Positions 1,847 to 59,245 of a stretch of DNA of 59,245 bases are shown here, piece by piece. Within the stretch, counting starts at the first letter, position 1, and each line of letters starts with the position of its first letter. The DNA comes from Ectothiorhodospiraceae bacterium (lineage in GTDB: Bacteria > Pseudomonadota > Gammaproteobacteria > Nitrococcales > Aquisalimonadaceae), in the NCBI GenBank assembly GCA_003565775.1, contig PXAT01000086.1:1-59245 (forward strand), given 5' to 3'. Under the pieces are notes generated by a model, which did no database searches, was not told the DNA's origin, and was given only the letters and a program-made list of their open reading frames with translations. The translations under genes and the position numbers were made by a program.

Positions 1847-2119
1847 AGGGAGACGCTGATCTATTCCCGCGTTCGCGCTCGAGTCGATTTTGGCAGCCTG
1901 GCAAGGCGCGGTGCCGGTTCGGTCGCCGTCGCTACCGGGCCGGTGACGCAACACCGCCAGGGGCCAGAATCGGCCGAGCCCCAAGGGGTTGGCATGGCAT
2001 TTTCCCGGTTTGCGGTGTTGCGCTGCTTGACCGCAGAGTCACTGCGGCGCTGCGCAGCGCCCCTTGCCTCGAAAAAATGCGAGGCCAATGCGAACGCGCG
2101 AATAGATCAGTGTCTCCCT
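1847..2119. repeat. Long inverted-repeat element, copy A (273 bp, full length)
   Basis: Both ends read inward as AGGGAGAC(G/A)CTGATCTATTC. The left half is the module containing GGCAAGGCGCGGTGCCGG. The right half is the inverted complement of the second module (TTGCGCTGCTTGACCGCAG and GCGCTGCGCAGCGC). Modules are in opposite order to copies B and C, so the whole element is inverted relative to them. No reading frame looks coded. The last bases form the TAG stop codon of the response-regulator gene (2118-2120). Confidence 0.8.
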
Positions 2120-2609
2120 AGGAATCCGGCGGTGTCAGCGCCGCCCAGGGTCGGGATGCGCCGGACAGCATCGGTGCCTCGCCGACCCGCGCCAGGGCGC
2201 GATGCAACAGTCTTGTCTCCAGCAGGTTCCAGGCGCGCAGCACGACCTCGACCTGATCGAAGGGTTTGGTCAGGAAGTCCGATGCGCCCAACGACAGGGC
2301 GCGGTAGCGTGCCTCGCGGGTCACATCGGCGGTCAGCACCAGCACCGGAATCCAGTTGCCGGCCCGGCGTTGGGCCTCGATCAGGCCCAGCAGGCTGTAG
2401 CCGTCGACATCGGGCATGCGCAGATCCAGCAGGACCAGATCCGGGCGATAGCTCTGCACCAGCGGGGGCACCTGGGTGGCGTCCACGGTGGAGAGGACCT
2501 GCTGGAAGCCCTCGTTGCCGAAGATCTCCTCCAGCAAGGCCAGATTCTCCGGTTCGTCGTCGACGATCAGCAGGCGGGCATCGCGAACCGCGAGTTCAGG
2601 GGCGCTCAT
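2118..2609 (-). CDS. Single-domain response regulator (receiver domain, no DNA-binding output)
   Basis: This is a 163-aa protein with one receiver domain over residues 11-130. It has the acidic pair LLIVDDEPEN at 13-22, the phospho-acceptor Asp62 in LLDLRMPDVDG, and the conserved Lys115 in FLTKPF. After the receiver only about 30 residues remain, with no helix-turn-helix or enzymatic domain, so it probably acts by protein contact or as a phosphate relay. The start overlaps the end of the upstream sensor kinase by 14 nt, consistent with coupled translation and a kinase-regulator pair. Its TAG stop codon lies within the terminal repeat of element A. Ligand and output are unknown. Confidence 0.85.
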   Translation of the reverse strand: MSAPELAVRDARLLIVDDEPENLALLEEIFGNEGFQQVLSTVDATQVPPLVQSYRPDLVLLDLRMPDVDGYSLLGLIEAQRRAGNWIPVLVLTADVTREARYRALSLGASDFLTKPFDQVEVVLRAWNLLETRLLHRALARVGEAPMLSGASRPWAALTPPDS

Positions 2610-4503
2610 TGACGATCTCCTGCAGTGCCAGTCGCCAGTTGCTCACCGGCGCCGTGGTCGGGATGATCCGGTGGGCGGACGGCTCGGTGTCATCGGGCGC
2701 CGGTGTCCCGCGGACGAGGGTTGCCAGCACCGACGTGGCCGGGATGGCGGACGCCGCAGCGGCATGCTCACCATCCCGAATGATCACCCAGCCGGCGTCA
2801 TCATCGGCTTCGGTCTGTGCGGAATGCCGGTGACAAGCAAGGCCGAGGCGCTTTGCCGTCGCCTCGATCTGAACGGCGAAGGCCTCGTCGTCGGTCTGCA
2901 GCCACACACGGGGCTTCACGCCGGCCTGCGCCGGCGGCAAGCGCTTCGTGTCGGGGATCGACGGCGGTTCCGTCGCCGCCACTGCCGGCGCATTTGCGAC
3001 GGCAAGCAGCAGCTCGAAACAACTTCCCGGACCCCGCGTTTCCAGATACCGCAGTTCGCCGCCCATGGCGACGGCGAGCCCGTGACTGATGGCGAGCCCC
3101 AGACCCACGCCCTCGGCCTGTCCGTCCTGCCGGGAGAAGGGTCGGAACAACTCGGCGCGAAAGGCAGCGGGAATGCCCGGCCCCTGGTCACGCACCTGCA
3201 GGGCAAGACGGTCATCGCCACTCCGCTCGACGGAGACCGTGACCGTGCTTTGCGACGGCGAGAACTTGACCGCATTGTCCAGCAGATTGATCAGGATCTG
3301 GAGGATGCGCCCGGCATCACCGCGCGCCGCCGGCAAGCCGCCGGGGATCTGCTGCTGCAGCCCGATTTGCCGCGCCTCGGCACGGCCTTCGACGATATCC
3401 AGGGCGTGCCGTACCTGGCTCGCCAGATCGACGGCCTGCTCGGTCAGTGAAATCTGCCCGGCCTCGACCCGGGACAGGTCCAGCAGATCGTTCACCAGTT
3501 GCAGCAGATGCTCGGCGCTTTGCTGGATCACCGTGACATGCCGGGCCTGGGCCTGATCCCCACCCGCCTCCCGCAACAGTCGGCTGAAGCCGATGATGGC
3601 GTTAAGCGGGGTGCGTAATTCGTGGCTGGTACGGGACAGGAAGCGGGTCTTCGCCTGACTGGCCTGCTCGGCGGTTCGCCGCGCGGTTTCCAGGTCCTGC
3701 AGGCGCTGTTCCAGCACCCCGCTGGTCTGCACCAGCAGGGTATCGAGTTCGGCAAGCTCGTCCTGATGCTTTCCGGGAAAGGCCTGCAGGGCCTCGCGCT
3801 GGCCGATGCGCCGGGCGTTGTCGCGCAGGTGACGGATGCGGCGGATCAGGCTGCCGGCGAACCAGCGTGACAGTACCGAGGCAAGGACGAAGGTCATCAG
3901 GACGGCGAACAGGCTGGCGGCCTGGGTCACGCGACGAACGCGGTCCTGCTCGGCACGCAACTCGGCGATAATCCGGTTCTCGCGCTCCTCCATGGATGCG
4001 ATGCCGGACCGCAGCCGATCCAGCAGCGCCTTGTTGTCACGGGCGTCGGCGAGCAACTGCGCATCATCCATCGCTGGCGGTGTCAGGGCCAGCGCCGACA
4101 GGCTGCGCAGTTTGATGTCCACCAGTTCGGAAATCTCGGCCAGTTGCTCGCGCTGCGCCGGTTCCCGGATGTCACGCTCCAGCCGCCGCAGGGCGTCACG
4201 CAGCTTGCCCTGGGCCCGTTCGTAAGGCTGCAGGAATGCCCGGTCCCGGGTGATGATGAAACCGCGAACACCGCTGGCCGCCTCGGCCAGTGCCGCATGG
4301 GCGGCGTGAATCTGCGCGAGCACTTGCAGGCCGCGCTGAACCTCGTCATCGGCCTCGCGGCTGAGCGTCACAGAGTGGATCAGAACACCGAAGGTGGTTG
4401 CTGCCAGCAACAGCGGGATCAGCGCAAGGATCAGGCTGCGGCCCCCAAGGCTGCGCAGCCACCGACCCCATTGACCCGGGGCCGCCTCAGATTTCGACGC
4501 CAC
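2596..4503 (-). CDS. Membrane sensor histidine kinase with CHASE3-like periplasmic domain and degenerate C-terminal domain
   Basis: A 635-aa protein read from a GTG at 4503, which overlaps the 3' end of the LuxR-type gene by 17 nt; no better start is seen. There is one membrane segment near residues 22-43, a helical CHASE3-like extracellular region (GFIITRDRAFL), a second membrane segment near 195-215 and a HAMP region. The HisKA box SHELRTPLNAIIGF has His294. ATPase motifs are NLLDNAVKFS, DQGPGIP and GVGLGLAIS. About 100 residues follow the ATPase domain, and part of them resembles a receiver fold without a clear phospho-acceptor. It forms a translationally coupled trio with the LuxR regulator upstream and the receiver protein downstream. 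The signal sensed cannot be told from sequence. Confidence 0.85.
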   Translation of the reverse strand: MASKSEAAPGQWGRWLRSLGGRSLILALIPLLLAATTFGVLIHSVTLSREADDEVQRGLQVLAQIHAAHAALAEAASGVRGFIITRDRAFLQPYERAQGKLRDALRRLERDIREPAQREQLAEISELVDIKLRSLSALALTPPAMDDAQLLADARDNKALLDRLRSGIASMEERENRIIAELRAEQDRVRRVTQAASLFAVLMTFVLASVLSRWFAGSLIRRIRHLRDNARRIGQREALQAFPGKHQDELAELDTLLVQTSGVLEQRLQDLETARRTAEQASQAKTRFLSRTSHELRTPLNAIIGFSRLLREAGGDQAQARHVTVIQQSAEHLLQLVNDLLDLSRVEAGQISLTEQAVDLASQVRHALDIVEGRAEARQIGLQQQIPGGLPAARGDAGRILQILINLLDNAVKFSPSQSTVTVSVERSGDDRLALQVRDQGPGIPAAFRAELFRPFSRQDGQAEGVGLGLAISHGLAVAMGGELRYLETRGPGSCFELLLAVANAPAVAATEPPSIPDTKRLPPAQAGVKPRVWLQTDDEAFAVQIEATAKRLGLACHRHSAQTEADDDAGWVIIRDGEHAAAASAIPATSVLATLVRGTPAPDDTEPSAHRIIPTTAPVSNWRLALQEIVNERP

Positions 4504-5245
4504 TGTGCCCGAGCCCCAGTTCCACGGCCCGCGCTGCCGCCTGCGCCCGGTCGTCGAGCTGCAACTTCCCGAGAATGCGCTCCACATGGGTCTTCACGGT
4601 GCCCGGGGCGATACCCAGGCTCAGCCCGATACGGGCATTGCTGAACCCCCGCGGCAGAAGACTGAGAATCTGCCGTTCCCTGGCCGTGAGCCGCGACAGA
4701 TCCTGCTGCTCCGCCACACTGGCGGGCCGGGTCTGCGGTGTTGTCTCCAGCGTCACGGCGGCCATCAGCGTGCCCAGCACATCCACCATGCGCTGGTCTG
4801 CGACCGGCGGTGCCGGCTGCTCCGGGAAGCCCGCGACCGCCAGCAGCCCGACAACCCGTCCGTGCACAGCCAGCGGGACAATCCACTCGAAGCCCGGGGA
4901 CTGGACCGTCAACAGCCAGTTCGCCGGTGGTGTCGAACGCAACACGATTTCGCCGGTTCCCCGGAGCAAGGCCTGCAAGGTCGGCCGGGGCGACAGGCGA
5001 CTGCCCTCGCCGAGCGCCCCGCCACTGGCTGCGAGCACCTGGAACACACCCTCCTGATAGCGCAGCCAGAGCACCTCCGCCGCACCCAGATGACGGCCCA
5101 GCGTTTCGACCACGGCGGCGCGTGGCTGGGGCTCTGTCCCGCGAAGCCGCTGGGCACACACTTCCAGACAGCGGAAGGAACGGCTGAAAGCGGCCTCCCC
5201 GCGAAAGCCGTCACGCAACGTCGTTACCAATCCGGATTCGGCCAT
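4487..5245 (-). CDS. GAF-like domain LuxR-family transcriptional regulator
   Basis: 252 aa from ATG 5245. Residues about 40-165 look like a GAF-type sensory domain (WIVPLAVHGRVVGLLAV). The C-terminal 65 residues are a LuxR helix-turn-helix: LTARERQILSLL, then GIAPGTVKTHVERIL. There is no receiver domain, so it is not a classical two-component target despite being co-transcribed with a kinase and a receiver protein. It could be the DNA-binding output through contact with the receiver, or respond to a small ligand by itself. An upstream in-frame start at 5362 gives only low-complexity basic sequence and was not chosen. Confidence 0.8.
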   Translation of the reverse strand: MAESGLVTTLRDGFRGEAAFSRSFRCLEVCAQRLRGTEPQPRAAVVETLGRHLGAAEVLWLRYQEGVFQVLAASGGALGEGSRLSPRPTLQALLRGTGEIVLRSTPPANWLLTVQSPGFEWIVPLAVHGRVVGLLAVAGFPEQPAPPVADQRMVDVLGTLMAAVTLETTPQTRPASVAEQQDLSRLTARERQILSLLPRGFSNARIGLSLGIAPGTVKTHVERILGKLQLDDRAQAAARAVELGLGHSGVEI

Positions 5246-5414
5246 CGCAAACCCTGTCCGAGAGCGCCGTTTCGAGCCCGATGACCCGACTGGCTTGTTA
5301 TCGCCCAGATCTATGACCCTCGGCAACACGAAAAGTCGCGCGCGGAAGACCGGAAAAAGCATGCGAAGCGTCAGGGCTCCCAGCAGGTCAAGACTTGCTG
5401 CTCCGTACCGTCAT

Positions 5415-6206
5415 TCAACGCTGAAACACCAACGGAAACGCGATGCGACCAACCGCCGGGGAGCTGCCCTCCAGCACGGTGATGAGCTGGTCCGGCCCGA
5501 GCGTGTCGTCGAGGAAAGCGATGCCTTCATAGATGCCGCCGTTGCGTTCACGGCGGCTGCCGCGGCAGTCGGCGTATTCGAGTCGGATTTCGTAGAGGTT
5601 GACCTCGCGGTCCGGAACGCGGAGCCGGCCGAAGGCCGTGCAGCCAGTGATCGAGCTCTGCAGGAAGAGTTCGCCGGCGGAATTGATGTTGAGGACCGCC
5701 TCGTCGCCGGTGATCAGGTCATCGTAAAGGCCGCTGGCCCGTGCGCGGGATGCCCGGCGCAGATAGACATCGGGCTCGTAGTCCACCAGCCAGCCGCCGG
5801 ACAGACGTCGGCCGTCGTCCAGGTCGACACGGTAGTCGCCGTCCAGGCGGGTGCTCTGGCGGCGTACCAGAAGATCGACTCGGCCCTCGCCGCGGGCATC
5901 GCCGTCATCGACGAAGACGCGGCTCCTGACACCGCCGGTATCGCGGTCATTGCGGAATACGCCGGTGAAACTGGTGTCGTCGGCCAGGCGATAGAAAAAG
6001 TAGCGGCCGTCCGGTGCCACCAGCCCTTCGACGTTGAAGCGCGTTCCGCCGACGCTGATGTCGCCGCTGTAGTAGCCCTGGATGTCGGCGACGCTGCGAC
6101 TGCCGCTGCTTCCGGACGAACTGCTGCCGCTGCTGTTGCAACCGGCCAGTAACAGCATCACCAGTCCCAGCAGCAAGCCACTGCCTCTCGCAATTCTTGT
6201 TGTCAT
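5415..6206 (-). CDS. Lipoprotein of unknown function with serine/glycine-rich linker
   Basis: 263 aa from ATG 6206. The lipobox LMLLLAGC at residues 16-23 predicts lipidation. It is followed by a SSGSSSSGSSGS linker and a mature domain rich in short beta-like segments (GYYSGDISVGG, YFFYRLADD). I do not recognise a named domain; paired repeats of the form G-x-Y/F-x-R/G suggest a beta-barrel or lipocalin-like fold, but this is weak. It is preceded by a solo copy of the repeat end (6228-6252), close enough for that repeat to lie in its leader. It appears to be transcribed alone. Confidence 0.65.
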   Translation of the reverse strand: MTTRIARGSGLLLGLVMLLLAGCNSSGSSSSGSSGSRSVADIQGYYSGDISVGGTRFNVEGLVAPDGRYFFYRLADDTSFTGVFRNDRDTGGVRSRVFVDDGDARGEGRVDLLVRRQSTRLDGDYRVDLDDGRRLSGGWLVDYEPDVYLRRASRARASGLYDDLITGDEAVLNINSAGELFLQSSITGCTAFGRLRVPDREVNLYEIRLEYADCRGSRRERNGGIYEGIAFLDDTLGPDQLITVLEGSSPAVGRIAFPLVFQR

Positions 6207-6217
6207 GCCGTGTTCTC

Positions 6218-6259
6218 CCATCGCAGGCGCGCGAATACTTCAGCGTTTCCCTGCGATGG
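6218..6259. repeat. Solo terminal repeat inside a perfect 10-bp inverted repeat
   Basis: Bases 6228-6252 match one end of the element family (reverse strand AGGGAAACGCTGAAGTATTC). No internal module or second end is nearby. It is bracketed by CCATCGCAGG (6218-6227) and CCTGCGATGG (6250-6259), a perfect inverted repeat. It may be a leftover of excision or recombination. Confidence 0.7.
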
Positions 6260-6630
6260 TGATAACAGGCGGTGACTGAATCCCTACTGAACAGGCGGCC
6301 TTGTCGACAGCGGTGAATGCTCCGCCAGCCATCGGGCACGCCAGGCGCTACCGGCGACACTGGCCGGATCGGGGGTCAATGTGCGGCGTCCGCAATCCGA
6401 TGACGCCATTGGGCTGCGAGTCGCGCACGGAACCGAGGCGTGTCGTCACAGCACCGTGTCGAACTGACACATGCGCCGTAATGATCGGGGCAAAAGCAGA
6501 CACCGGCCCACTCCAATGAATTCTGAAAACCCTGCATAGTTTCTTTTTTATCAATCACCTGAAAGAACCCTGACACCATCTGGCATCTCTCCTGCACCGT
6601 TCGGGGTACATCTCGACTCAAGGAGGCATC
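6260..6630. other. Intergenic region between divergent genes
   Basis: This 370-bp spacer separates the lipoprotein gene (minus) from the small exported protein gene (plus). It contains an AT-rich patch near 6540-6560 that could be a promoter. No coding frame, RNA gene or known operator is evident apart from the ribosome site AGGAGG at 6621-6626. Confidence 0.4.
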
Positions 6631-6810
6631 ATGAGCTTTGCCAAGCTTCGTCTGATCCTGATGAGCCTGATTGTCGGTCTTGCATTTTCGATCGGCGGGG
6701 CCGGGATGGCGGTCGCCGACGAACACGGCGGCGAAGACTACGAGGATGGTGGCCATCCGTCGGAAGCCGATGACGACGAGATCGAAGACCGCAGCGGTGC
6801 CGAGAAGTAG
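6631..6810 (+). CDS. Small exported acidic protein (59 aa), unknown function
   Basis: A 59-residue frame starts at ATG 6631, five bases after a perfect AGGAGG ribosome site, and ends at TAG 6808. The N-terminal half is a signal peptide or membrane segment (LILMSLIVGLAFSIGGAG, cleavage plausible after VADEH). The mature 30 residues are extremely acidic (EDYEDGG, EADDDEIEDR). A textbook terminator follows at 6842, so gene boundaries are clear on both sides. No family is recognised; a metal-binding or acid-buffering periplasmic peptide is possible but unproven. Good signals at both ends make it more convincing than its size suggests. Confidence 0.65.
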   Translation: MSFAKLRLILMSLIVGLAFSIGGAGMAVADEHGGEDYEDGGHPSEADDDEIEDRSGAEK

Positions 6811-6841
6811 GACACGGCCCGCACCCATTCACACTCTTTTC

Positions 6842-6872
6842 AAGGCCGCCGGAGGCTCTCCGGCGGCCTTTT
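6842..6872 (+). terminator. Rho-independent terminator after the small exported protein
   Basis: The stem AAGGCCGCCGGAG / CTCCGGCGGCCTT (13 bp) has a 3-base loop and ends in a T run. It starts 32 bp after the stop codon. Confidence 0.85.
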
Positions 6873-6946
6873 CCGTGCATCGGTGATGGCAGGCAGCGAC
6901 TGCCCACCCTGTGCAGCCGGCCTTGCTGGCGGGCCGCGTACGTCGA

Positions 6947-7879: not shown

Positions 7880-7895
7880 CCTGTTGGTCTCCCCC

Positions 7896-8303
7896 ATGGT
7901 TGATATTGCCACTCCGCAAAGTTACCAGTTACTGATCTGGCTGGATTCCCCCTGCACACTCTGCATCGGCGCTCTGGGGCGACACGCGCTGCACCGGGGG
8001 CTGTACCTGTACACAGGCAGTGCGCGCCGGCACATGCAGGCGCGCCTGCAACGGCACCTGCGGCGGGACAAACCCCTGCGCTGGCATATCGATTATGTGC
8101 TGAGCGCTGCGCCGGCGCGAATCATCGATATTGCGGTGTCGCACCGGCCGGAATGCGAACTCTGTCAGGCAGTGGACGGGCGGATTCCGGTGCCGGGTCT
8201 GGGCGCCTCGGACTGTCGTGCCGGCTGCGGCAGCCATCTATGCTTTCTCGGTGACGCGCCATGGGCTGCCGGCCTGGCCGCGATCCCTGGGGCCATGCAA
8301 TAA
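7896..8303 (+). CDS. DUF123 / GIY-YIG-like protein
   Basis: 135 aa from ATG 7896. Motifs LYLYTGSARR, MQARLQRHLRR and RWHIDYVLS match the DUF123 family (COG1833), a GIY-YIG-like nuclease-fold domain sometimes attached to endonuclease III. C-terminal cysteines (CELCQ, ASDCRAGCGSHL) are typical of the family. Biochemical function is not established. No clear ribosome site precedes the ATG. The threonine-dehydratase-like gene starts 10 bp after its stop, suggesting one transcript. Confidence 0.7.
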   Translation: MVDIATPQSYQLLIWLDSPCTLCIGALGRHALHRGLYLYTGSARRHMQARLQRHLRRDKPLRWHIDYVLSAAPARIIDIAVSHRPECELCQAVDGRIPVPGLGASDCRAGCGSHLCFLGDAPWAAGLAAIPGAMQ

Positions 8304-8313
8304 CGGGGGACGG

Positions 8314-9264: not shown

Positions 9265-9276
9265 CAGCAACGAACA

Positions 9277-11809: not shown

Positions 11810-12081
11810 AGGGCAGCGCTGACGTATTCCCGCGCCTGCGTTGGTGTCGCATTTTTTCCGGGCCAAGGCGCGCTGCGCAGCGCCGCAGTCATTCTGCGGT
11901 CAAGCAGCGCAACGCAGCAGTCGGGGAAAATGCGGCCCAACCCACAGGGCCCGGCCGGTTTTGCCCCGCGGCGGCGTTGCGCCGCCGGTCCGGTAGCCCC
12001 GCTACCGGACCGGCACCACGCCTTGCCAGATGACCAAAACCGGTCTCGGGCGCAGACGCGGGAATACGTCAGCGCTGCCCT
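11810..12081. repeat. Long inverted-repeat element, copy B (272 bp, full length)
   Basis: The first and last 25 bp are perfect inverted repeats beginning AGGGCAGCGCTGACGTATTC. The left half is module 1: an outer stem (GTCGCATTTTTTCC with GGGGAAAATGCG) enclosing the self-complementary GCGCTGCGCAGCGC and the hairpin CCGCAG-TCATT-CTGCGG. The right half is module 2 with GGTCCGGTAGC / GCTACCGGACC. The right end overlaps the TAG stop of cbbR (12080-12082), and the left end is 30 bp before the start of the next gene, so the element is probably transcribed between them. Confidence 0.85.
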
Positions 12082-21038: not shown

Positions 21039-23990
21039 TCAACCACGTGCACCACCCGAAATCGTCACCAGCGATCCTTCACCGCTGTTGCCCGAGGATC
21101 CGGTGATCCGGCTCGGCGGCACTTCCTTGCGCTCGATCTCCCGATTGACATAGGCGCTCCGGCCTTCTCCCCGCGGGGCACCACGACGCGTGGTATTACG
21201 GCGCGTCGACAGCCCTTCGGTGCCGGTGATGTTCTTGCCGCGCTGCCAGTCGTCACCGGTAATGGTGACCCCGTTGCTGCTGCCGTTGACGGTCACCCGC
21301 TCGGCACCCTGCACGCCGCCTTCGGTTTCCGCGGGCGCCGGCGCAATCTGGCGCTCGTCCGGATAGCGGAACTCGTCGGTGCCGGAGACCAGGCCCATCG
21401 CCTTGTTGCTCGGACCGGTGATGCCGCTGGAATTGCCGTAGGCGGTGCCGGTGACGCGCCGCTCGCGACGTTCCTGAGCGGTGCGGGCCGGTGTTTCGAC
21501 GCTGAAGCCGCCGTTCGGCATCGGCCGGGGCTCCGGTGCCGGCTGCGGCCGCGTCGCCGCGGAGCGCATGCTCGGCGGCTGGAACCGCGGATGCAGCGCC
21601 GGGGCCGGTCCGTCGCAGACCTGACCGAACTCGTCGGCACCGACATAGGGCGCACCGGACACGTTCTGGCAGGCACCGCGCGCGGTGCCGGTCACCCGCT
21701 CGTCGTAACCCGGCTGACTGCCGGACACCACGTGTCCGGGCGTTGCCTGACGCTCGGCCACGCGCTGATCGGCGGCCATGGTTTCCGGTGCCTCGCAGAA
21801 CTGGTCGTACTGATCGGGACCGATATACGGGGTGCCACTAATGGGTGTGCAGGCACCGTATTCGTCGCCGGTCATGCGGGTCGAGCGGCCCACGGCGGTG
21901 CCCGACACGTTCTGATGATTCCAGGTCCGGCCGACGGTCACCTTGTTCGGTGTCGCTTCCGGGCGTGAGCCACAGAACGCGGCATAGTGATCGGAGCCGA
22001 CATATTCGGTCCCGGTGATCGGCTTGCAGCCACCGTACTCGTCACCGGTCACATGCAGGGATTTCTCGATCATGGTCCCGGAGACTTCCCGGCCACGCAG
22101 CGTGTGCATCACGCCGACCTTGGGCACGCCGCCAGCGGCAGGCTCGCGACAGACATCACCGAAATCCGCCTTGTTGTAGTAAGGGGTACCGGTGAGGTTG
22201 TGGCAGGAACCGGTTTCGTCACCGGTCACCCGTTCACTGCGACCTATCGCGGTGCCGGTAATGCTCTGGTCACCAACAGTACGCAGCTCGTGCACCTTCT
22301 CCGGTGCCGACGCGCGAGGCGCGGTGCCGCAGAAACCGGCGAACTGTTCCCGGCCCAGGTATTCGGTCCCGGTGACCGGCTTGCAACTGCCGTACTCATC
22401 ACCGGTCACGTTCGTCGAGCGGCCGACTTCGGTGCCGGTCAACTGCCGGCCCTTGAGGGTGTGCATGACACCGACCTTGGGTACGCCATCGGCAGACGGC
22501 GTGCCGCAGGGAATGTCGCTGTCGGCCGTGTTCATGTATTCGGTGCCGGTCACGCTCCTGCAGGAACCGGCCTCGTCGCCGGTCACCTTGCTGCTGCGCG
22601 CGACACTGGTGCCGGACACGGTCTCGCCGGACCGGGTCGACATGACACTGACCTTGCGCACGCCGGGCTCGGGCTGGGTACCGCAGAAACCCGCGTACTG
22701 TTCGGAGCTGAGATATTCGGTGCCGGTCACGGACCCGCAGGATCCCGCCTCGTCACCCGTCACCCGACTCGAGCGACCGACCTCGGTGCCACTGACCGGC
22801 TGCCCGCTGATGGTATGCGAGCTGCCGACCTTGGCCGGGTTCGGCGTCGGCTGCGAGCCACAGAAGCGGTCGTAGTGCTCCAGCTCCAGATACTCGGTGC
22901 CGGTCACGGACCTGCAACTGCCAGCCTCGGTGCCGGTGACGGACGGGGCACGCTGCACACGCGTACCGGTCACCACACCACCGGACAACGTCGTGCTCTC
23001 TTCCACCTTTGCAGGCGCCGCCGTTTCCGGCTTCGGTCGCCCGCAGGGACGCGCCGGATCGGCCGAACCACGACCGATCTGGCAGAGTTCTTCCCGCCGC
23101 TGGCGGGCGATTTCACGGGTCGAAAAACCGCGACGCTGTGCGGCCTTCCAGGATCCTTCCTGCGGCAACACACCGCGACTGAGCCCGCCAATATGACGAC
23201 GCTGCCGCAGACCCTTCTTGCCGCCCTTTGCCATTGCCTCGCGCCGCGCCATGCACAATGCGCGTACCGTCGAGACGATCGGTTCGGTCACGCCCTGCAC
23301 GTCGTCACCGCTCGATTCGACCTGCTCGCAGAGCTGGTCAAGGCCGGCATCCACGGCATCCTCGGCCACGTACGAATCGGTATCCGCGTAGGACTGCCGT
23401 GACTGCTCGCCTGCGGCCGACCCCGCCCCCTTCAGCATGTCCTGCCGACGCGGCTCGGCGGCCATCGCCGTCTTGCCGTTCTCGGAAAGCGCCTGGCGAC
23501 GCAGCTGGCAGATTTCGCGACCGCTCATGTTGCTGCAGTCGACGTTCTGGGAGCGCGCCAGCGCTTCGAGTTGCGCCGACTGCACCGATCCGGACCGGGC
23601 CATGCCGACACTCCGTGCGCCGGCACGCGGCAAGGCCTTCTTGCCACGCAAGGCCATGTCCCGACGCCGTTCGAGCGCACGCTGTCGCCCGTTGGATGCC
23701 CCGCAATTCACGCCGTGCTCCGGCATCGGCGTCGCTTGCGGCGACGCCGTGGCGGCCGCGAACGGTTCCTTGCGCGCAGCCGACTGCCGCGCCGGCGGCA
23801 CCAGCGAGGTTGCTGGCGGCGACTCGGGCTCGGCGGCCCGCTCGGCACGCGCCGGGCGGCTCTGGCTCTTGCTTCGCTCCTGCCCCGTCGTCTTCAGGGC
23901 AGCTTTGCCCCCACGGGACATGGCCTTCCGCCGCTCGAGGGCAAGTTCTCGCCCTGACAGACGGTTCGGCGCGGATGTCGGCTTACTCAT
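21039..23990 (-). CDS. csoS2: CsoS2, RuBisCO-shell scaffold protein
   Basis: 983 aa, intrinsically disordered organiser of the alpha-carboxysome. Five N-terminal basic helices of the type GRELALERRKAMSRGG are seen near residues 12-33, 100-120, 156-176, 242-264 and 287-306; these bind RuBisCO. Seven middle repeats of about 59 residues follow (roughly 334-747), each with VTGDE-x-GSC and VTGTEY cores and a FCG cysteine. The C-terminal region ends ITGSSGNSGEG and SGGARG, the shell-anchoring peptide. Model proteins have four N and six M repeats, so this is on the long side. I did not find a convincing ribosomal slippery site for a short isoform. Confidence 0.93.
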   Translation of the reverse strand: MSKPTSAPNRLSGRELALERRKAMSRGGKAALKTTGQERSKSQSRPARAERAAEPESPPATSLVPPARQSAARKEPFAAATASPQATPMPEHGVNCGASNGRQRALERRRDMALRGKKALPRAGARSVGMARSGSVQSAQLEALARSQNVDCSNMSGREICQLRRQALSENGKTAMAAEPRRQDMLKGAGSAAGEQSRQSYADTDSYVAEDAVDAGLDQLCEQVESSGDDVQGVTEPIVSTVRALCMARREAMAKGGKKGLRQRRHIGGLSRGVLPQEGSWKAAQRRGFSTREIARQRREELCQIGRGSADPARPCGRPKPETAAPAKVEESTTLSGGVVTGTRVQRAPSVTGTEAGSCRSVTGTEYLELEHYDRFCGSQPTPNPAKVGSSHTISGQPVSGTEVGRSSRVTGDEAGSCGSVTGTEYLSSEQYAGFCGTQPEPGVRKVSVMSTRSGETVSGTSVARSSKVTGDEAGSCRSVTGTEYMNTADSDIPCGTPSADGVPKVGVMHTLKGRQLTGTEVGRSTNVTGDEYGSCKPVTGTEYLGREQFAGFCGTAPRASAPEKVHELRTVGDQSITGTAIGRSERVTGDETGSCHNLTGTPYYNKADFGDVCREPAAGGVPKVGVMHTLRGREVSGTMIEKSLHVTGDEYGGCKPITGTEYVGSDHYAAFCGSRPEATPNKVTVGRTWNHQNVSGTAVGRSTRMTGDEYGACTPISGTPYIGPDQYDQFCEAPETMAADQRVAERQATPGHVVSGSQPGYDERVTGTARGACQNVSGAPYVGADEFGQVCDGPAPALHPRFQPPSMRSAATRPQPAPEPRPMPNGGFSVETPARTAQERRERRVTGTAYGNSSGITGPSNKAMGLVSGTDEFRYPDERQIAPAPAETEGGVQGAERVTVNGSSNGVTITGDDWQRGKNITGTEGLSTRRNTTRRGAPRGEGRSAYVNREIERKEVPPSRITGSSGNSGEGSLVTISGGARG

Positions 23991-38378: not shown

Positions 38379-38650
38379 AGGAAACGCGGAAGTATTCGCA
38401 CGCCTGCGTTGGAGTCCGCATTTTTCCGAGGCAAGGCGCTCAGCGCGGCGCCGCAGTCATTCTGCGGTCAAGCAGCGCAACGCAGCATTCGGGGAAAATG
38501 CGGCCCACCCCGGAGGGAAGCATGCACCGTTTACTTGAGACCATCGCCCGTGAGGATCCGGCTCACACAGCATAGACCGCCGACACCGCGCCTTGCCGGA
38601 TCACCGGAGCCGGTCCCGGGCGCCGTCTCGGGAATCGATCAGGGTTGCCT
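38379..38650. repeat. Long inverted-repeat element, copy C (272 bp, full length)
   Basis: It starts AGGAAACGCGGAAGTATTC and ends (read inward) AGGCAACCCTGATCGATTCC, the most diverged pair of ends among full copies. Module 1 is on the left (GCATTTTTCCG, CCGCAGTCATTCTGCGG, GGGGAAAATGCGG) and a diverged module 2 on the right (CGCGCCTTGCCGGATCACCG). It separates the convergent fnr and hemN genes and contributes the last base of the hemN stop codon TGA. Confidence 0.8.
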
Positions 38651-41041: not shown

Positions 41042-41114
41042 GTCCTTGGCGCGCCTTGCCGAATGGTCAAAAACCGGGCTACGGCGCAGATGCGAGAAGC
41101 AACCAGTGTTTTCT
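41042..41114. repeat. Inverted-repeat element, copy D (right-end remnant)
   Basis: GCGCGCCTTGCCGAATGG, ACCGGGCTACGGCGCAGATG and the end (read inward) AGAAAACACTGGTTGCTTC match the right part of module 2 and its terminal repeat. No left end is certain, although AGGAAAAACACTCA at 40875 could be a worn one. The end supplies the last base of the TGA of the MinD-like gene. Confidence 0.65.
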
Positions 41115-41982: not shown

Positions 41983-42145
41983 AGGAAACGCTGAAGTATT
42001 CCCGCGTCTGCGCCCGAGACCGGTTTTGGTCATCTGGCAAGGCGCGGTGCGCAGTGCCGCAATCATTCTGCGGTCAAGCAGCGCAACGCCGCAGTCGGGG
42101 AAAATGCGACTCCAACGCAGGCGTGCGAATACTTCAGCGTTTCCT
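41983..42145. repeat. Inverted-repeat element, copy E (163 bp, short hybrid)
   Basis: The two ends are inverted repeats, identical over 20 bp (AGGAAACGCTGAAGTATTC plus the next base). The left half is module 2 (CGAGACCGGTTTTGGTCATC) and the right half is module 1 (CATTCTGCGGTCAAGCAGCG). The inner halves of both modules are missing, as if recombination joined them at the shared GGCAAGGCGCG stretch. TA flanks it on each side. Confidence 0.8.
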
Positions 42146-43323: not shown

Positions 43324-43496
43324 AGGCAACCGCTGACTTGTTCCCGCGTCTGCGCCCGAGACCGGTTCCGGTCATCTGGCAAGGCGCGATACCGGTTCGT
43401 CATTCATTTTACCGGGCCGCTGAAGTAACGCCGTCAGGGGCCGAAACCGGCCGGGCCTTCAGGGCAGCATGCACGCGACTGAATCAGCGATTCCCT
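43324..43496. repeat. Inverted-repeat element, copy F (173 bp, diverged)
   Basis: The left end is AGGCAACCGCTGACTTGTTC and the right end (read inward) is AGGGAATCGCTGATTCAGTC. The body is module 2 only (GAGACCGGTTCCGGTCATC, GCAAGGCGCGATACCGG, then GGGGCCGAAACCGGCC). It lies in the leader region upstream of the deacetylase-family gene. Confidence 0.7.
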
Positions 43497-53036: not shown

Positions 53037-53276
53037 CCCACCGCCAGCGCATTGCCGTCCCGAAAGGCCGCTACGTATTTTTCAGTATTCGCGGTACTGT
53101 AAAGGGACTCGACGATCAGGCATGGTTCAGCACGCCGGATCGGCGGCGGGTTGGCCTGACCGAATGCCTGTCAGCCCGCCCATGACGCAACACCCGAATC
53201 AACGATTGATCCGGCGAATTCAGACGTTGCTCTCGGTCGCGTGCCGGATCAGCAAATCACGGAACGGAGTCATTGC

Positions 53277-55067
53277 ATGCCGCACTCGGGGCGAATCGTG
53301 CCGACACTTGCGGGGCTTTTTGCATTTCTTCTGACCATGTCGGCAGTGCTGGCACTCGAGCGCCTGAATCATTCCTATGCGGTCGCCGACTCGCGCACCC
53401 AGGTCAACAACCACGCCGCGGCTCTGCGCTCGCGGCTGGAAAGCGAGATGAACCGCACGATCTTCGCGGTCAGCGGCTTCACGCATTTTATCGGTGCCAA
53501 CCCCGAACTGGGCTGGGAGGCATTCCGCCCGGTCGCCGAGCGCATGGTTCAGCCCGGCAGCCACATGATCAACATCACGCTGGCACCCGACAACATCATC
53601 CGCTGGATCTATCCGATTGAAGGCAACGAGGCGGCGATCGGCCTGCGAATTCTGGATCATCCGCAGCAAGGCGAGAGCCTGCGCCGCATGATCGACTCGG
53701 GTCGACCGGTGGTGACGGGCCCGGTGGATCTGGTTCAGGGCGGTCATGCACTGATTTTCCGCAGTCCGGTCTATCTGGATGACGGCAGTTACTGGGGCGC
53801 CGCCAGTGTGCCGGTGGACTACCACAGCGTGCTTGCGGCCGCCGGACTGGAAGAAGCCGGGGTCAACGGGCTGTCGGTGGCGCTCCGCGGACACGACGGA
53901 CTCGGCGCCGACGGCGATCTGTTTTTCGGCGATGCCGAGGTGTTCCGGAGGGACCCGGTCCTGCAGACCGTTCGTTTCGAGGGGCAGTCCTGGCAGATGG
54001 CAATGGCACCGGCCGAAGGCTGGGCGGCGTACGCCGCGGGCCCGAACACCCATCGCATGACCGGCGTGCTGCTGGCGCTGATCTTCGCCGTGCTGGCGGC
54101 AGTGCTCGCGGCTCAGGCCTACCGGATCCGGCGCGTCTCCCGGCGCCTCGAGGCGCTGGTCGCAGCGATCCCCGACAGCGGCTTCGTGATCAATGACCGG
54201 GGGCGTTTTCTGGAGAGCTTCGGTGGCCGGGAACGGCGCCTGTACCACGACGGATCCGTACTCAAGGATCGTCGTCTGGACGAGATCATGGATGCCGAAA
54301 CGGCACGCCATGCGCTGGCCGGCGTGCAGCGTTCGATCGCGGAAAAGCGACTGGTCACGCTGGAATATGCGCTGCGCAGCGACGACAGCGAGCTGCTGAA
54401 CAACATTGGCGGTCCGTCCGGCACGCAATGGTTCGAGGCGCGCATCTACCCCCTGCCGAAAGGGATCGAAGATCGCCCGGCCGTACTCTGGCTTGCCTAC
54501 AACATCACCGAACGCAGGCTGGCGGAGGAACAGGCGCGAATCAACGAGGAGCAGATACGGCACCTGGCCATGCACGATCACCTCACCGGGCTGGCCAATC
54601 GAACCTATCTGCTCGAGCAGATGCAGAAAGCACTGGACATGGCCGAGCGCAACGGGCATCAGATCGGGCTGCTGTTCCTGGATCTGGATCATTTCAAGAC
54701 CATCAATGACAACCACGGTCACGAAACCGGTGATCTGGTACTGCAGGAACTGGCGGCACGCCTGCGCACCGTGATTCGCCACTCCGACACGGTGGCCCGC
54801 CATGGCGGCGACGAGTTCGTCATTCTGATGAGCAAGGTGGACGGACTGGACGGCGCCAAGGCCGTCGCCGAGAAGACCCTCGCGGCGATCACGAAACCGA
54901 TCGAGGCGAACGGACGGATTTTCCGCGTTGGTGCCAGCATCGGCATCAGTCTCTACCCGGATCACGGCGTCACGGCCGACGATCTTCAGCGCGCTGCGGA
55001 CGATGCCATGTATCAGGCCAAAGACGGCGGCCGTGATCAGGTGAGCGTGGCGATCGCAGGGTCCTGA
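53277..55067 (+). CDS. Membrane diguanylate cyclase with CHASE and PAS domains
   Basis: 596 aa. It has an N-terminal membrane helix, a CHASE-type periplasmic domain (AERMVQPGSHMINITLAPDN, GPVDLVQGGHALIFRSPVY), a second helix near 260-285 (LLALIFAVLAAVLAAQAY), a PAS-like region, and a C-terminal GGDEF domain with HGGDEFV near 509. No EAL domain is present, so it should make c-di-GMP. ATG 53277 follows GGAG. Its 3' end overlaps the convergent TRAP gene by 31 nt. Confidence 0.88.
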   Translation: MPHSGRIVPTLAGLFAFLLTMSAVLALERLNHSYAVADSRTQVNNHAAALRSRLESEMNRTIFAVSGFTHFIGANPELGWEAFRPVAERMVQPGSHMINITLAPDNIIRWIYPIEGNEAAIGLRILDHPQQGESLRRMIDSGRPVVTGPVDLVQGGHALIFRSPVYLDDGSYWGAASVPVDYHSVLAAAGLEEAGVNGLSVALRGHDGLGADGDLFFGDAEVFRRDPVLQTVRFEGQSWQMAMAPAEGWAAYAAGPNTHRMTGVLLALIFAVLAAVLAAQAYRIRRVSRRLEALVAAIPDSGFVINDRGRFLESFGGRERRLYHDGSVLKDRRLDEIMDAETARHALAGVQRSIAEKRLVTLEYALRSDDSELLNNIGGPSGTQWFEARIYPLPKGIEDRPAVLWLAYNITERRLAEEQARINEEQIRHLAMHDHLTGLANRTYLLEQMQKALDMAERNGHQIGLLFLDLDHFKTINDNHGHETGDLVLQELAARLRTVIRHSDTVARHGGDEFVILMSKVDGLDGAKAVAEKTLAAITKPIEANGRIFRVGASIGISLYPDHGVTADDLQRAADDAMYQAKDGGRDQVSVAIAGS

Positions 55068-57769
55068 CGCCGCCGCTGCGCCCAACCGACCAGCCCGAGC
55101 AGGAACAGCGCCGGCAACAACCACCAGGCCTCGGATGGTCGATCGGCGTCGACCAGCACCGACTCCACCTCCCAACCGAAATCGATGCCTGCCCGCTCTG
55201 CGGGGCTGCCGTGACTGACGTCCGTGACGCGCAGCAGGGTCGCATCCTCCGCCTGCAGGCCCAGACCCGCCCTCTCCAGCCGCTCCCGTGCCGTCGGCGC
55301 CGCCTCGAGCCGCAACATGGCAGGCCTGGACACCTCACGACCCTCGCTGTCCAGCCCGGCGAACCACAAGCGAAGATGGCTGCCCTCGGCCGTGGCGTCG
55401 ACGATCTCCATCAGCTCGTCAGCGGGGCGATGCTCGTGCTCGGGGGCCAGGCGGTCCATCCAGAAACCGGGATACAGCAGCGTGAATGCCACGAGCAGCA
55501 GTGCCAGGGTCTCGTACCAGCGATTGGCCGTCAGCCAGAACCCCTGCGACGCGGCGGCGAATACCAGCATGGCGGCAGTGGCGCTCAGTACCACCAGTGC
55601 CAGATCCCAGTACGAATCCACCCCGATCAGCAGCAACTGGGTGTTGAAGATGAACACGAACGGCAGAATGATCATGCGCAGGCTGTAGCGGAGAGCGTGC
55701 ACGCCGGTCATCACCGGGTCGCCGCGTGACACGCCGGCCGCAGCGAATGTCGCCAGTCCCACCGGCGGCGTCAGATCCGCCATGATGCCGAAGTAGAAGA
55801 CGAACAGGTGGACGGCAATCAGCGGGACTACCAGACCTGCGTCCGCGCCGAGTTCGACCACGATGGGCGCCATCAGACTGGCGACGATGATGTAGTTGGC
55901 GGTGGTCGGCAGACCAAGTCCGAGCACCAGGCTGAGCAGTGCCACCAGTACCAGCATCAGCAGCAGATTGCCGCCGGACAGAGCCTCCACCACCTGACTC
56001 AGGCCGAGACCCAGCCCGGTCATCGAGACGGTACCCACGATGATCCCGGCAGTCGCCGTAGCCACGCCGATGCCGATCATGTTGCGCGCACCCAGCACCA
56101 GGCCGTGATACAGATCCTGCACGCCGTCGATGCCGGCCTTGATCACAGCGCCGCGCTGCCGCCGGAAGCAGGCGATCAGCGGTCGCTGCGTCAGACAGAT
56201 GACCAGCAGCAGCGCGACCGCCCAGAACGCCGCCAGCGCCGGTGACAAGCGCTCGATGACCAGGGCCCAGATCAGCACCAGGATCGGCAACAGATAATGC
56301 AGGCCACCGAGCACGGTCGGTCCCAGGGCCGGCAGTTCCTCGGCGGGGTCCTCGATGGCCGGTTCCTGGCCGGCGGCAAGCCGGACCAGCGCCAGATACA
56401 GCAGCAGCAGGCCGGCCACCAGCACCGATACCGAGACACCGGTCGCCATTGGTTCCAGCCAGCTCAGCAGCAACGTCAGCAGGCCGGCGAGAATGACCAG
56501 ACTCGCGATCACCAGGCCGATACCCAGAGCTCGCGCCCGCCAGTCGGCGTCGGCACGCCGGGGCAGCCCCTGCATCCCTCCCTTGACCGCTTCCAGATGC
56601 ACGATGTAGAGCAGCGCGATATAGGCGATGGCGGCCGGCAGAAAGGCGTGGCGAATGACTTCGATGTAGGGAATCCCGACGTACTCGACCATCAGGAAGG
56701 CAGCAGCACCCATCACCGGCGGCATCAACTGACCGTTGACCGAGCTGGCCACCTCGACGGCACCGGCCTTGTTCGCCGACAGGCCGACCCGCTTCATGAG
56801 CGGGATGGTGAAGGTACCGGTGGTCACGGTATTGGCGATGGACGAGCCGGAGATCATGCCGGTCAGGGCCGAGGCCACCACCGCGGCCTTGGCCGGCCCG
56901 CCCCGCAGGTGCCCGAGCAGCGCGAACGCCACGAGAATGAAGTAGCGCCCGGCGCCGGCCCGCTCCAGCAGCGCACCGAACAGCACGAACAGGAACACGA
57001 AGCTGGTGGAAACGCCCAGCGCAATGCCGAACACGCCCTCGCCCGACAGCCAGTACTGGGATGCTGCCCGGCTCAGCGAGGCGCCACGATGCGCCAGCAG
57101 ATCCGGCAGCCAGGGGCCGACGAAAGCGAACAGCAGGAAAAGCCCGGCGATCAGACTGAGCGCCGGGCCCAGCGAGCGGCGTGTCGCCTCCAGCAGCAGC
57201 AGGATGCCGACACCAGAAACCAGCAGATCCATGGTCAGAGGCCGCCCCGGCCGATCCGCCAGCGCGGCATGCTGCCAGTAGAGGTAGAATGCCGTGCCGG
57301 CTGCCAGAAGCGCCAGCGCGACATCGATCATTGGCAAACGAACGGCGGCCGGGCGGCCGCGGCTCCAGGCGATCAGCATGGCGACCAGGCCCATGCCGAA
57401 CCAGGGCGCGGCACCCGCCGGGCTGTCATGAAACGCTGTCCACAGGGCGACCGCGAGCAGACCCGTGCCGGCCATGCCGATGATCAGGGCCAGCATGGGG
57501 ATCCCGTCATCGGCGCTCCGGACTCGGGACTGTGCCGGGAACAGGGCAAATGCGAGCAGCAGCGCGAAGCCAAGATGGACCGACCGCGCCTCGGTCTCGG
57601 AAATCACGCCCCAGCCGATCAGGAATGGCAGCGGGCTGGCGATCCAGAGCTGAAACAGGGACCAGCACAGCGCGACGCCGGCCAGCACGTGTCCAGCCCA
57701 GGCGTTACCGCGCCAGTTGCCGGCGGGCGTTGCCGGGGGATCGCTTCGCTCCGGCTGACCGGCGCTCAT
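55037..57769 (-). CDS. Fused TRAP transporter permease (TAXI type) with C-terminal DUF3394-like domain
   Basis: 910 aa. The small and large permease subunits are fused (about 18 or more hydrophobic segments). Family stretches are GMISGSSIANTVTTGTFTIP, NGQLMPPVMGAAAFLMVEY and LGLGLPTTANYIIVASL. After the membrane part a domain of about 150 residues contains SPAERAGIDFGWEVE, resembling a PDZ-like/DUF3394 region, then a last helix and basic tail. TRAP systems import carboxylates or amino acids with sodium or proton gradients. It overlaps the binding-protein gene by 4 nt. Confidence 0.88.
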   Translation of the reverse strand: MSAGQPERSDPPATPAGNWRGNAWAGHVLAGVALCWSLFQLWIASPLPFLIGWGVISETEARSVHLGFALLLAFALFPAQSRVRSADDGIPMLALIIGMAGTGLLAVALWTAFHDSPAGAAPWFGMGLVAMLIAWSRGRPAAVRLPMIDVALALLAAGTAFYLYWQHAALADRPGRPLTMDLLVSGVGILLLLEATRRSLGPALSLIAGLFLLFAFVGPWLPDLLAHRGASLSRAASQYWLSGEGVFGIALGVSTSFVFLFVLFGALLERAGAGRYFILVAFALLGHLRGGPAKAAVVASALTGMISGSSIANTVTTGTFTIPLMKRVGLSANKAGAVEVASSVNGQLMPPVMGAAAFLMVEYVGIPYIEVIRHAFLPAAIAYIALLYIVHLEAVKGGMQGLPRRADADWRARALGIGLVIASLVILAGLLTLLLSWLEPMATGVSVSVLVAGLLLLYLALVRLAAGQEPAIEDPAEELPALGPTVLGGLHYLLPILVLIWALVIERLSPALAAFWAVALLLVICLTQRPLIACFRRQRGAVIKAGIDGVQDLYHGLVLGARNMIGIGVATATAGIIVGTVSMTGLGLGLSQVVEALSGGNLLLMLVLVALLSLVLGLGLPTTANYIIVASLMAPIVVELGADAGLVVPLIAVHLFVFYFGIMADLTPPVGLATFAAAGVSRGDPVMTGVHALRYSLRMIILPFVFIFNTQLLLIGVDSYWDLALVVLSATAAMLVFAAASQGFWLTANRWYETLALLLVAFTLLYPGFWMDRLAPEHEHRPADELMEIVDATAEGSHLRLWFAGLDSEGREVSRPAMLRLEAAPTARERLERAGLGLQAEDATLLRVTDVSHGSPAERAGIDFGWEVESVLVDADRPSEAWWLLPALFLLGLVGWAQRRRQDPAIATLT

Positions 57770-58770
57770 TCCGACGCCCCGGCGTCGAGCAGCCCTTGCT
57801 CCCGGAAGTAGCGCTCGGCGCCCGGATGCAGCGGTGCGCTCAGCCCCTCGCGCACCATCTCCTCCGGTTCCAGCAGATCAAGCGCCGGATGCAGACGGCG
57901 AAAGATGTCGAAATTCTCGAACACCGCGCGCACCAGTTCGTAGACCACGTCGTCCGGCACCGCCGCCCGGGTAACCAGCGTGGCACGCACACCGAAGGTG
58001 CTGATGGCCCCGTCCATGCCCGGATAAAGCCCGTCCGGCAACTCCGCGTGGCTGTAATAGGGATGTTCCGCGACCAGCTCGTCCACAACCTCGCCGCGGA
58101 CATCCAGCAGCCGGGCATCACAGGTGGCAATCGGTTCCTGAATCGAGCCGGACGGATGACCGACCGTGAACAGAATCACGTCGATGCGATTGTCGCAGAG
58201 CGCCGCCGACTGCTCGCGCGACGGCAGTTCCGAGGCCAGCGAAAAGTCGTCCATCGTCCAGCCGAGCGCTTCCATCAGCCGCTCGACGGTGCCGCGCTGG
58301 CCCGACCCCGGATTGCCGACATTGACCCGCAGGCCGCGACTGTCCAGGAAATCATCGACGTCCGCATCGCGCCTCGCCATCACCGTGAACGGTTCCGGGT
58401 GCAGGGCGAACACGGCACGCAGATCCTCGTCCGGGCCCCGGGAGGCGAACACGCTACTGCCGGCATAGGCGTGATGCTGCCAGTCGGACTGCACCACGCC
58501 GAACTCGAGATCACCCTGACGCAGGGCATTCAGGTTGAAGATCGAACCGGCCGTGGATTCCACCGCGCAGCGAATGCCGTGTCGCTCCCGTTCCCGGTTC
58601 AGAAGTCGGCAGATGGCGCCACCTGTGGGATAATAGACGCCGGTCACGCCGCCGGTGCCGAGTGCCGTGAAACGCGCCTCCGGCTCCGTTGTCATGATAT
58701 GCGCGAGTCCGAGGAGCGTTAGCACCAGCAACGCGGCAAGCCCCAGCAGACGGCGAGGAAATCCGCTCAT
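57766..58770 (-). CDS. TAXI-family TRAP solute-binding protein
   Basis: About 334 aa from ATG 58770, with an N-terminal signal/anchor (LLGLAALLVLTLLGLAHI). TAXI hallmarks are TALGTGGVTGVYYPTGGAIC, then GIRCAVESTAGSIFNL and FGVVQSDWQHHAYAG. It delivers ligand, probably glutamate/2-oxoglutarate-like or unknown, to the fused permease encoded downstream with a 4-nt overlap. ATG 58794 is an alternative start. Confidence 0.88.
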   Translation of the reverse strand: MSGFPRRLLGLAALLVLTLLGLAHIMTTEPEARFTALGTGGVTGVYYPTGGAICRLLNRERERHGIRCAVESTAGSIFNLNALRQGDLEFGVVQSDWQHHAYAGSSVFASRGPDEDLRAVFALHPEPFTVMARRDADVDDFLDSRGLRVNVGNPGSGQRGTVERLMEALGWTMDDFSLASELPSREQSAALCDNRIDVILFTVGHPSGSIQEPIATCDARLLDVRGEVVDELVAEHPYYSHAELPDGLYPGMDGAISTFGVRATLVTRAAVPDDVVYELVRAVFENFDIFRRLHPALDLLEPEEMVREGLSAPLHPGAERYFREQGLLDAGASE

Positions 58771-58820
58771 CGCCGGCCGCGCCCCGGACACCATTTCCCG
58801 CTGCCAAGGAACAGGTTCAC

Positions 58821-59099
58821 ATGTACACCCTCTGGTTGATTCTGGTTTGTGCCGTCACCCTGCCGGCCATGGCCTATGCCCATATCCGGCTGCCCTACCA
58901 CACACCGAACGAGACACAGCTGCGTGTCTCGCGCATGGTGCTGCTGTTCACCGGCATCGCCTTCGGCTGGGTCATGGCACGGATCTACGGCATGAACACC
59001 GAGCTGAATTCGGTGCTGGTGTTCATCAGCGGCCTTGCGCTGGTGCATGTGCCGGCCGCCTGTGTGCTGTTCATCAAGCGGCAACGACCGGGGGAGTGA
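58821..59099 (+). CDS. Small membrane protein, unknown function
   Basis: 92 aa with three hydrophobic segments: LWLILVCAVTLPAMAYAHI, VLLFTGIAFGWVMARIY and VLVFISGLALVHVPAACVLF. A charged KRQRPGE tail ends it. I do not recognise a family. It is divergent from the TAXI gene and has AAGGAA as ribosome site. Repeat copy G begins 3 bp after its stop. Confidence 0.6.
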   Translation: MYTLWLILVCAVTLPAMAYAHIRLPYHTPNETQLRVSRMVLLFTGIAFGWVMARIYGMNTELNSVLVFISGLALVHVPAACVLFIKRQRPGE

Positions 59100-59102
59100 C
59101 CC

Positions 59103-59245
59103 AGGGAAACGCTGAAGTATTCCCTAGGGAAACACTGATTTATTAGCGCCCCTGCGTTGGAGTCCGCATTTTTTCCGAGGCAAGGCGCGCTGCGCAGCCC
59201 CGCAGTCATTCTGCGGTCAAGCAGCGCAACGCAGCAATCGGGAAA
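59103..59245. repeat. Inverted-repeat elements, copy G (nested ends; cut by the window edge)
   Basis: Bases 59103-59124 are one terminal repeat (AGGGAAACGCTGAAGTATTC). At 59126 a second end begins (AGGGAAACACTGATTTATT) and runs into module 1 (CGCATTTTTTCCGAGGCAAG, CATTCTGCGGTCAAGCAGC). The second element therefore interrupts the first about 22 bp inside it. The rest lies outside the window. Confidence 0.75.

Follow-up and report, generated by a model that had tools for sequence, protein, structure and literature searches.

The nearest described relative, in mechanism, of the repeat considered here is MITEPsy1, a 100-bp miniature inverted-repeat transposable element (MITE) of Pseudomonas syringae pv. 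phaseolicola whose transposition has been demonstrated. According to the excerpted account (PMC3189936), well-conserved copies of it are found only in P. syringae pathovars, and similar sequences occur more widely. The repeat in question is a family of non-coding elements of about 269 bp, first seen in a 59,245-nt contig of an Ectothiorhodospiraceae bacterium (PXAT01000086.1). The whole of that stretch is referred to below as the window; it is contig C120 of a 3.2-Mb draft genome (G000) in 215 contigs. MITEPsy1 is likewise non-coding, has ends of the insertion sequence (IS) family IS5 that start GGAA, and inserts at CTAG or YTAA with a 4-bp duplication; it differs in its length of 100 bp, and a two-module interior is not among the features described in the same excerpts (PMC3189936).

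Other described systems resemble the window repeat in part. MITEAba12 of Acinetobacter is IS-derived and constant in length, and shares its ends with a resident IS, but in the portion of the report drawn on here it is 111–114 bp long, makes 9-bp duplications and has ISAba12 as its proposed partner (PMC6382973). The REPINs and the GTAG and CGTC repetitive extragenic palindromes (REPs) have inverted hairpins, high copy numbers and extragenic positions; as excerpted, REPs are 20–40 bp long and the GTAG type is tied to RAYTs (PMC3733652), whereas the window repeat has long terminal repeats and YTAR duplications, in a genome with no PF01797 match. The QMITEs of Coxiella can be likened to the repeat, and set apart from it, by description only: they are MITEs with a stably folding transcript, but with 7–9 bp direct repeats and a core of 113–145 bp in the excerpted text (PMC10969869). 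Finally, IS of the IS5 family (NF033581) have the same outer ends and duplications and are candidate autonomous partners in relatives; unlike the repeat, they encode a transposase, and only the ends are common to the two. By its mobility the window family is of a kind already known, and its shared structured interior is the new part. No description of the core was found among the listed papers examined from motif, end-string and subject searches, to which subscription papers and preprints were mostly out of scope.

The repeat is a MITE family with a covarying paired core, a conclusion that is held with high confidence. Its terminal inverted repeats begin GGAAACGCTGAWNTATTC... A paired-end search of the own genome and of relatives, allowing up to 2 mismatches in 11 bp and a spacing of 60–340 bp, returned 119 distinct entries, a few of which overlap one another; at least 18 of the 28 end positions match in all 119, this being the selection criterion. 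The near-constant length claimed in the original prediction is evident, in that 94 of the 119 measure 262–272 bp, and a further 13 measure 150–185 bp. Identical 4-bp flanks were present in 50 of the 119, whereas 1000 shuffles gave 20.8 on average and never more than 32. These exact pairs comprise CTAG (24), TTAA (20), CTAA (2) and one each of TTAG, TTAT, CTTG and CTGG, and six of the 50 are non-palindromic duplications. In tandem copies, a single TTAA or CTAG is common to both. Four longer copies (L046, L060, L069 and L196; 292–322 bp) have extra central sequence, several with a third hairpin (GGGAAGCATG...), and a stretch similar to that sequence is retained in the window copy at 38380.

In the own genome, the 20-mer TCTGCGGTCAAGCAGCGCAA was matched 108 times (up to 2 mismatches), and the reversed pattern not at all. 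Of the roughly 100 repeat places listed, a hand count put no fewer than 35 at 350 bp or less from the end of a contig. With so many copies at contig ends, the true copy number is probably higher, and the repeat helps to account for where the assembly breaks. Full-length or nearly full-length copies were found in the same genus in G001 (Methylonatrum kenyense AMT 1) and in two metagenome-assembled genomes (MAGs), G002 (MAG CSBr16_16) and G003 (MAG CSSed165cm_602R1); more distant carriers include G010 (Aquisalimonas lutea) and G034 (Ectothiorhodospiraceae bacterium WFHF3C12), the organism names being those inferred for these genome handles. A search of relatives gave a match in 15 of 40 genomes, the own genome included, and an A. 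lutea element used as the query matched 9 of 10 chosen genomes.

The suggestion that the repeat is a MITE-type element is borne out by its inverted ends, by the 4-bp YTAR duplications, by its many copies and by relatives that carry an IS5-family partner whose outer ends are the same; by its mobility, it is an ordinary MITE. The original prediction had set this against a structured RNA/DNA repeat. Each of the two is supported, covariation of the core being strong, but they are not exclusive, and both hold. As had been stated, the repeat appears to encode no protein, judging by open reading frame lists and home-made gene calls.

The interior had been described as two unrelated modules, each able to fold on itself. 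The second part of that description stands, since each module is a long hairpin around a folded core. The first does not: R1, a covariance model of the core, matches both modules in the copies at 1849 and at 11812 (E values in Table 1), so that they represent one fold in opposite orientation. The core consists of GGCAAGGC, a 7-bp stem (S1), an inner hairpin (S2) and AACGC-N-GC, and two such modules lie head to head (convergent). In layout, the left half of the element resembles the right half read as its reverse complement: each runs through end, outer stem, GGCAAGGC, inner hairpin, AACGC and outer stem. Modules differ between families, and in relatives the outer stems vary in sequence yet stay complementary. 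In a test that parsed 168 of 190 modules and 15 of 17 clusters, the mean duplex energy of the outer arms was –32.8 kcal/mol for cognate and –18.1 kcal/mol for non-cognate pairs, and the own arm ranked first in 10 of 15 cluster representatives, with one further tie (printed as rank 2). The whole element is predicted to fold as a three-way junction, with z-scores of –8.3 (DNA, G000 copy) and –16.8 (RNA, G038 copy). In A. lutea, the same outer stem encloses a module in opposite orientation in L116 and L101, as though modules were inverted or swapped among the copies.

Compensatory changes, a check proposed together with the original prediction, are abundant in the core stems. Two-sided changes were observed in 9 of the 14 predicted pairs among 18 type-A modules from 11 genomes, and in 14 of 15 pairs among 30 cores from many families. 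In the latter alignment, 86.0% of cells are paired and the covariation score is 0.607, compared with 0.198 for shuffled and 0.093–0.144 for slid alignments. For 56 distinct typed cores, standard pairs make up 76.0% of S1, as against 57.7% with arms dealt anew and 18–43% with arms slid, and G-A/A-G steps at fixed positions account for many of the non-standard cells. The corresponding value for 12 coding-looking matches that share those ends is 36.9%. A set of 43 cores outside the 30-core alignment (46 of the 62 model hits were given, 3 of them already in the alignment) had standard pairs in 263 of 301 S1 cells (87.4%), compared with 58.2 ± 2.2% with arms dealt anew; these cores were chosen by the model, which favours pairing, but the same rows underlie both the dealt-anew and the slid controls. 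The 301 cells included 23 G-U, 1 A-C and 31 G-A/A-G combinations. The second base after the core was G in 46 of 46 hits. This covariation indicates that a single-stranded fold of the core was kept while the sequence of its stems changed. A subclass of cores with G-A/A-G steps in S1, where Watson–Crick pairs would otherwise stand, was seen in G074, G221, G308 and G163 and in loci L330, L332, L336, L348 and L353; in these five loci, the G-A/A-G core partners a better-paired core of the same element.

The R1 search, made across Pseudomonadota, found the core in the own genome and in many others, with matches in 112 of 398 genomes at E≤0.01 per genome, where about 4 would be expected (the E values are rough). 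The matched genomes include 84 of the 338 of good quality and represent 64 of 213 genera, all of these counts including the own genome. The pattern GGCAAGGCG N25-55 CAACGC is present in 149 of 274 genomes of the class, a figure that includes chance matches in coding sequence, and the R1 counts are preferred. A second, opposite core was found 55–73 nt away in 21 of 31 loci, three of these being weak (E=0.07–0.63). Outer inverted repeats give lengths of 264–284 bp in 27 of the 31, some of which include the duplicated site; in the other four, ends were not found (L331), the element is cut by a contig end (L337), the method trimmed it to 256 (L341), or a single core is present (L350). The 38 ends trimmed by hand fell into 19 single-linkage clusters (67% over 18 nt; 99% of shuffled pairs reach at most 61%), an upper figure, as some single ends share short starts. 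More than one end class occurs within a single genome in G074 (L309 and L312 vs L311) and in G183 (L304 vs L324).

A plasmid search with one element gave five records, three from Azotobacter chroococcum and one each from Halomonas sp. PA16-9 and Pseudomonas aeruginosa PA83. No listed feature lies under the best of these matches, in a gene table that is incomplete and for a Halomonas record that is nearly unannotated. Viral contigs held no exact match to the type-A pattern, and phages gave no match to the one element used as a query. Rfam had no match at the gathering score in the window or in 10 loci. With E values up to 1, seven loci gave nine matches below threshold, of which eight are to microRNA precursors and the ninth to M23 RNA; twister-sister was rejected as an identity for the core, as no such match was among them.

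A transposase with the same ends had been proposed as a further search target, and an IS5-family IS of this kind was found in relatives, though not in the own assembly. Searches for PF05598 in 12 genomes gave matches in seven and 21 loci, among which ends of the element type were present on both sides in G004 (four) and G011 (one). The G004 IS has four copies of 1202 bp with ends GGAAACGCTGATTTATTCGCC and GGAAGCGCTGATCTAATGCC, one of which matches the MITE variant GGAAACGCTGATTTATTC at 18 of 18 positions and the other at 14 of 18. Its flanks are TTAG/TTAG in two copies, CTAA/CTAA in one and a mismatched CTAA/CTAG in one. The transposase is of the IS5 family (NF033581, E=1.5e–101; PF01609 and PF05598 also matched), and that of G011 is 95% identical to it, with similar ends. 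With such an IS in relatives, the question of a MITE is decided, and interest shifts to the interior. Among 54 genomes of the order, the G004 transposase has matches in 14, and intact copies of at least 95% identity in G004 and G011 only. Decayed or diverged forms were seen elsewhere: a 77% copy with an in-frame stop in G014; a 47-residue piece beside a matching end in M. kenyense; and, in G036, 13 matches that are about 50% identical where full length, the five loci fetched having the end GGAGACTCTGAACTATTCC, a remoter member of that end class. G274, from another family, has both two-module elements and an IS with the end class of the window.

The only two PF01609 hits in the own genome, on contigs C198 and C214 (L091 and L092), lack element ends, and these contigs look AT-rich and foreign by eye, like binning contamination. 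An IS630-family gene starts about 40 bp from an Azotobacter chroococcum element, and no end of the element type was found on its far side. G415 has 46 PF01609 matches and a paired-core element whose ends are GTACTCCTTCAA; those ends are lacking in the seven transposase loci that were fetched. In a TTAA-flanked chimera (L145/L268; G008:C232, about 4665–4966), the left end and core resemble those of a MITE and are joined to the C-terminal portion of a transposase of the IS5 family and to an IS-like right end. The chimera is possibly an intermediate between IS and MITE, and adjoins what appears to be a tRNA gene.

The data are consistent with the following explanation. IS5-family transposases would move the repeats in trans, as the anatomy of the elements and the matching IS in relatives suggest. 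The transposase would recognize the outer approximately 18 bp (GGAAACGCTGAWNTATTC) and insert the element at a 4-bp YTAR site (TTAA, CTAG, CTAA or TTAG), duplicating it. Between the ends, the two convergent modules, each a long hairpin with a conserved core, may act as a folded single strand, with RNA in read-through transcripts more likely than DNA; the head-to-head pair would offer one core in the sense orientation, whichever direction the element is read. The interior would represent an old lineage, served over time by different transposases through either exchange or divergence of ends. That the core, as a rule paired in an element of about 268 bp, is an ancient satellite lineage across Pseudomonadota, which survives by adapting its ends to the IS transposase active at the time and whose fold is selected for a single-stranded function, is given slightly less than an even chance.

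Several observations weigh against this explanation. An intact partner IS was not found in the own genome in searches with PF01609, PF05598 and the G004 transposase. The other end clusters lack a matching transposase: PF01609 hit 10 of 18 genomes, and only G274 fitted, in a check that used this one family and 30 fetched loci rather than every match (above all in G415). A second core was not detected in 10 of the 31 loci, and the own outer arm was not first in 5 of the 15 clusters (besides the tie, ranks 2, 2, 4 and 10, the last being a chimeric module). The G-U excess and the G-A pairs could fit RNA and single-stranded DNA alike. Placement does not resemble that of terminators. Among 56 full-length elements, from loci of the Methylonatrum group with enough flank and with home-made gene calls, 33 lie between tandem, 12 between divergent and 6 between convergent genes, one is inside a gene and four have no gene on one side; the convergent/tandem/divergent counts of 6/33/12 compare with 40/97/39 for gaps of >30 bp. 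Terminator-like sites at two scanned copies numbered 0 and 1, against shuffled means of 0.4 and 0.3.

The end clusters are also open to a slower history, in which one ancient MITE lineage diverged together with its IS partners, its ends drifting without any switch of transposase and its interior looking conserved partly through recent masters in each genome. Several clusters are indeed loosely alike (GG..CTGTT and GG..CTCTGA groups), some single ends share starts such as TGTCCTG, and the modules too vary between families. However, single genomes (G074 and G183) hold paired-core elements with clearly different ends, and as many as 19 end clusters occur while the cores retain GGCAAGGC and AACGC. 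This history is a serious possibility, although we would sooner expect it to be wrong than right.

It is unlikely that the repeats are bidirectional terminators or mRNA stabilizers that hosts retain and IS spread. The distance on the stop side is 0–1 bp in 15 of 45 cases, so that many copies begin the 3′ untranslated region, as such a role would have it. Yet there is no excess of convergent gene pairs (6 of 51), gene orientation does not support termination, and the scans of two copies were at chance level. The YTAR target, in GC-rich DNA, largely accounts for the placement: of the 41 free YTAR sites in the window (counted with the 38380 copy unmasked), 6 coincide with stop codons, 14 fall within genes and 21 are intergenic. 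This distribution of free sites follows from the make-up of CTAG and TTAA, each of which includes a stop codon and is scarce within GC-rich genes. The placement of the copies looks like the result of target choice and the loss of harmful insertions, rather than of a terminator role.

Covariation might also arise without selection on a folded strand, from template switching in hairpins (quasi-palindrome correction) or from gene conversion between arms. Correction of long near-palindromes is a known process, and the opposite modules within the same outer stem in L116 and L101 of A. lutea are what it could produce. Such a process, however, should also pair GGCAAGGC with AACGC-N-GC, both of which are predicted to be unpaired, and it is at odds with the preponderance of G-U over A-C (23 to 1) and with the G-A/A-G steps that replace Watson–Crick pairs at fixed positions; it is improbable as the source of the covariation. 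Least credible, and very improbable, is that these are REP- or REPIN-like elements on whose hairpins a RAYT (Y1 tyrosine transposase) acts, the terminal repeats being incidental: the two inverted hairpins and short palindromic spacer do resemble a REPIN, and Y1_Tnp (PF01797) has matches in 14 of the 16 genomes searched, but the own genome is one of the two with none, and the long terminal repeats and 4-bp duplications are as expected for a DDE transposase.

The window copies are listed in Table 1. All eight places at which the repeat had been reported were found in the sequence, and their similarity is not due to chance, the copies at 1849 and 11812 aligning with E=5.9e–55. The three copies described as full do have full length (268–270 bp without the target duplication), but in the one at 38380 R1 detected one core and no second. 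In the hybrid at 43326, the core (43378–43431) is a weak R1 match (E=0.044). The solo end sits, within 6205–6270, between palindrome arms (CATCGCAG...CTGCGATG). The 118 bases of the copy at 59128 are also present at the end of contig C85 (locus L026). Elsewhere in the window, a gene for CsoS2, the alpha-carboxysome scaffold, was identified at 21039–23990 (NCBIfam E=8.4e–202, below the family cut-off), which suggests that the organism is an autotroph.

Table 1. Repeat copies and structured cores in the window. Element borders are given without the target duplication; E values are for R1.
Feature	Position	Strand	Details
Full-length element, 269 bp	1849..2117	-	Flanks CCAG / CTAG; reversed relative to copy 11812
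Structured core, one module, weak match	1900..1954	+	E 6.3e-4
Structured core, other module of 1849 copy	2015..2068	-	E 3.5e-11
Solo terminal repeat	about 6218..6250	not assigned	Similarity to other copies
Full-length element, 268 bp	11812..12079	+	Flanks CCAG / CTAT
Structured core, left module of 11812 copy	11862..11915	+	E 1.1e-12
Structured core, right module of 11812 copy, opposite orientation	11974..12027	-	E 4.6e-7
Full-length element, 270 bp	38380..38649	+	Flanks TTAA / TCAA
Structured core of 38380 copy	38430..38483	+	E 1.8e-11
Remnant of one element end	about 41050..41111	not assigned	Similarity to other copies
One-core hybrid element, 161 bp	41984..42144	+	Flanks ATAA / TTAA
Structured core of 41984 hybrid	42036..42089	+	E 7.6e-11
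One-module hybrid element, 169 bp	43326..43494	+	Flanks CCAG / CTGG
Truncated left end adjoining next copy	59105..59124	+	
Left part of further copy, cut by contig end	59128..59245	+	
Structured core of 59128 copy	59179..59232	+	E 2.8e-15; best R1 match in window

The core represents a covariance-model family that is absent from the copy of Rfam searched, and it marks repeats that have no annotated feature under the plasmid matches. MITEs are usually viewed as bound to a single parent IS, and their interior as irrelevant. Here, a strongly covarying interior recurs in elements of nearly fixed length that have many different ends. Should those ends truly be exchanged, a parasite that encodes nothing can move from one transposase to another, and would owe its success to a fold that is directly testable.

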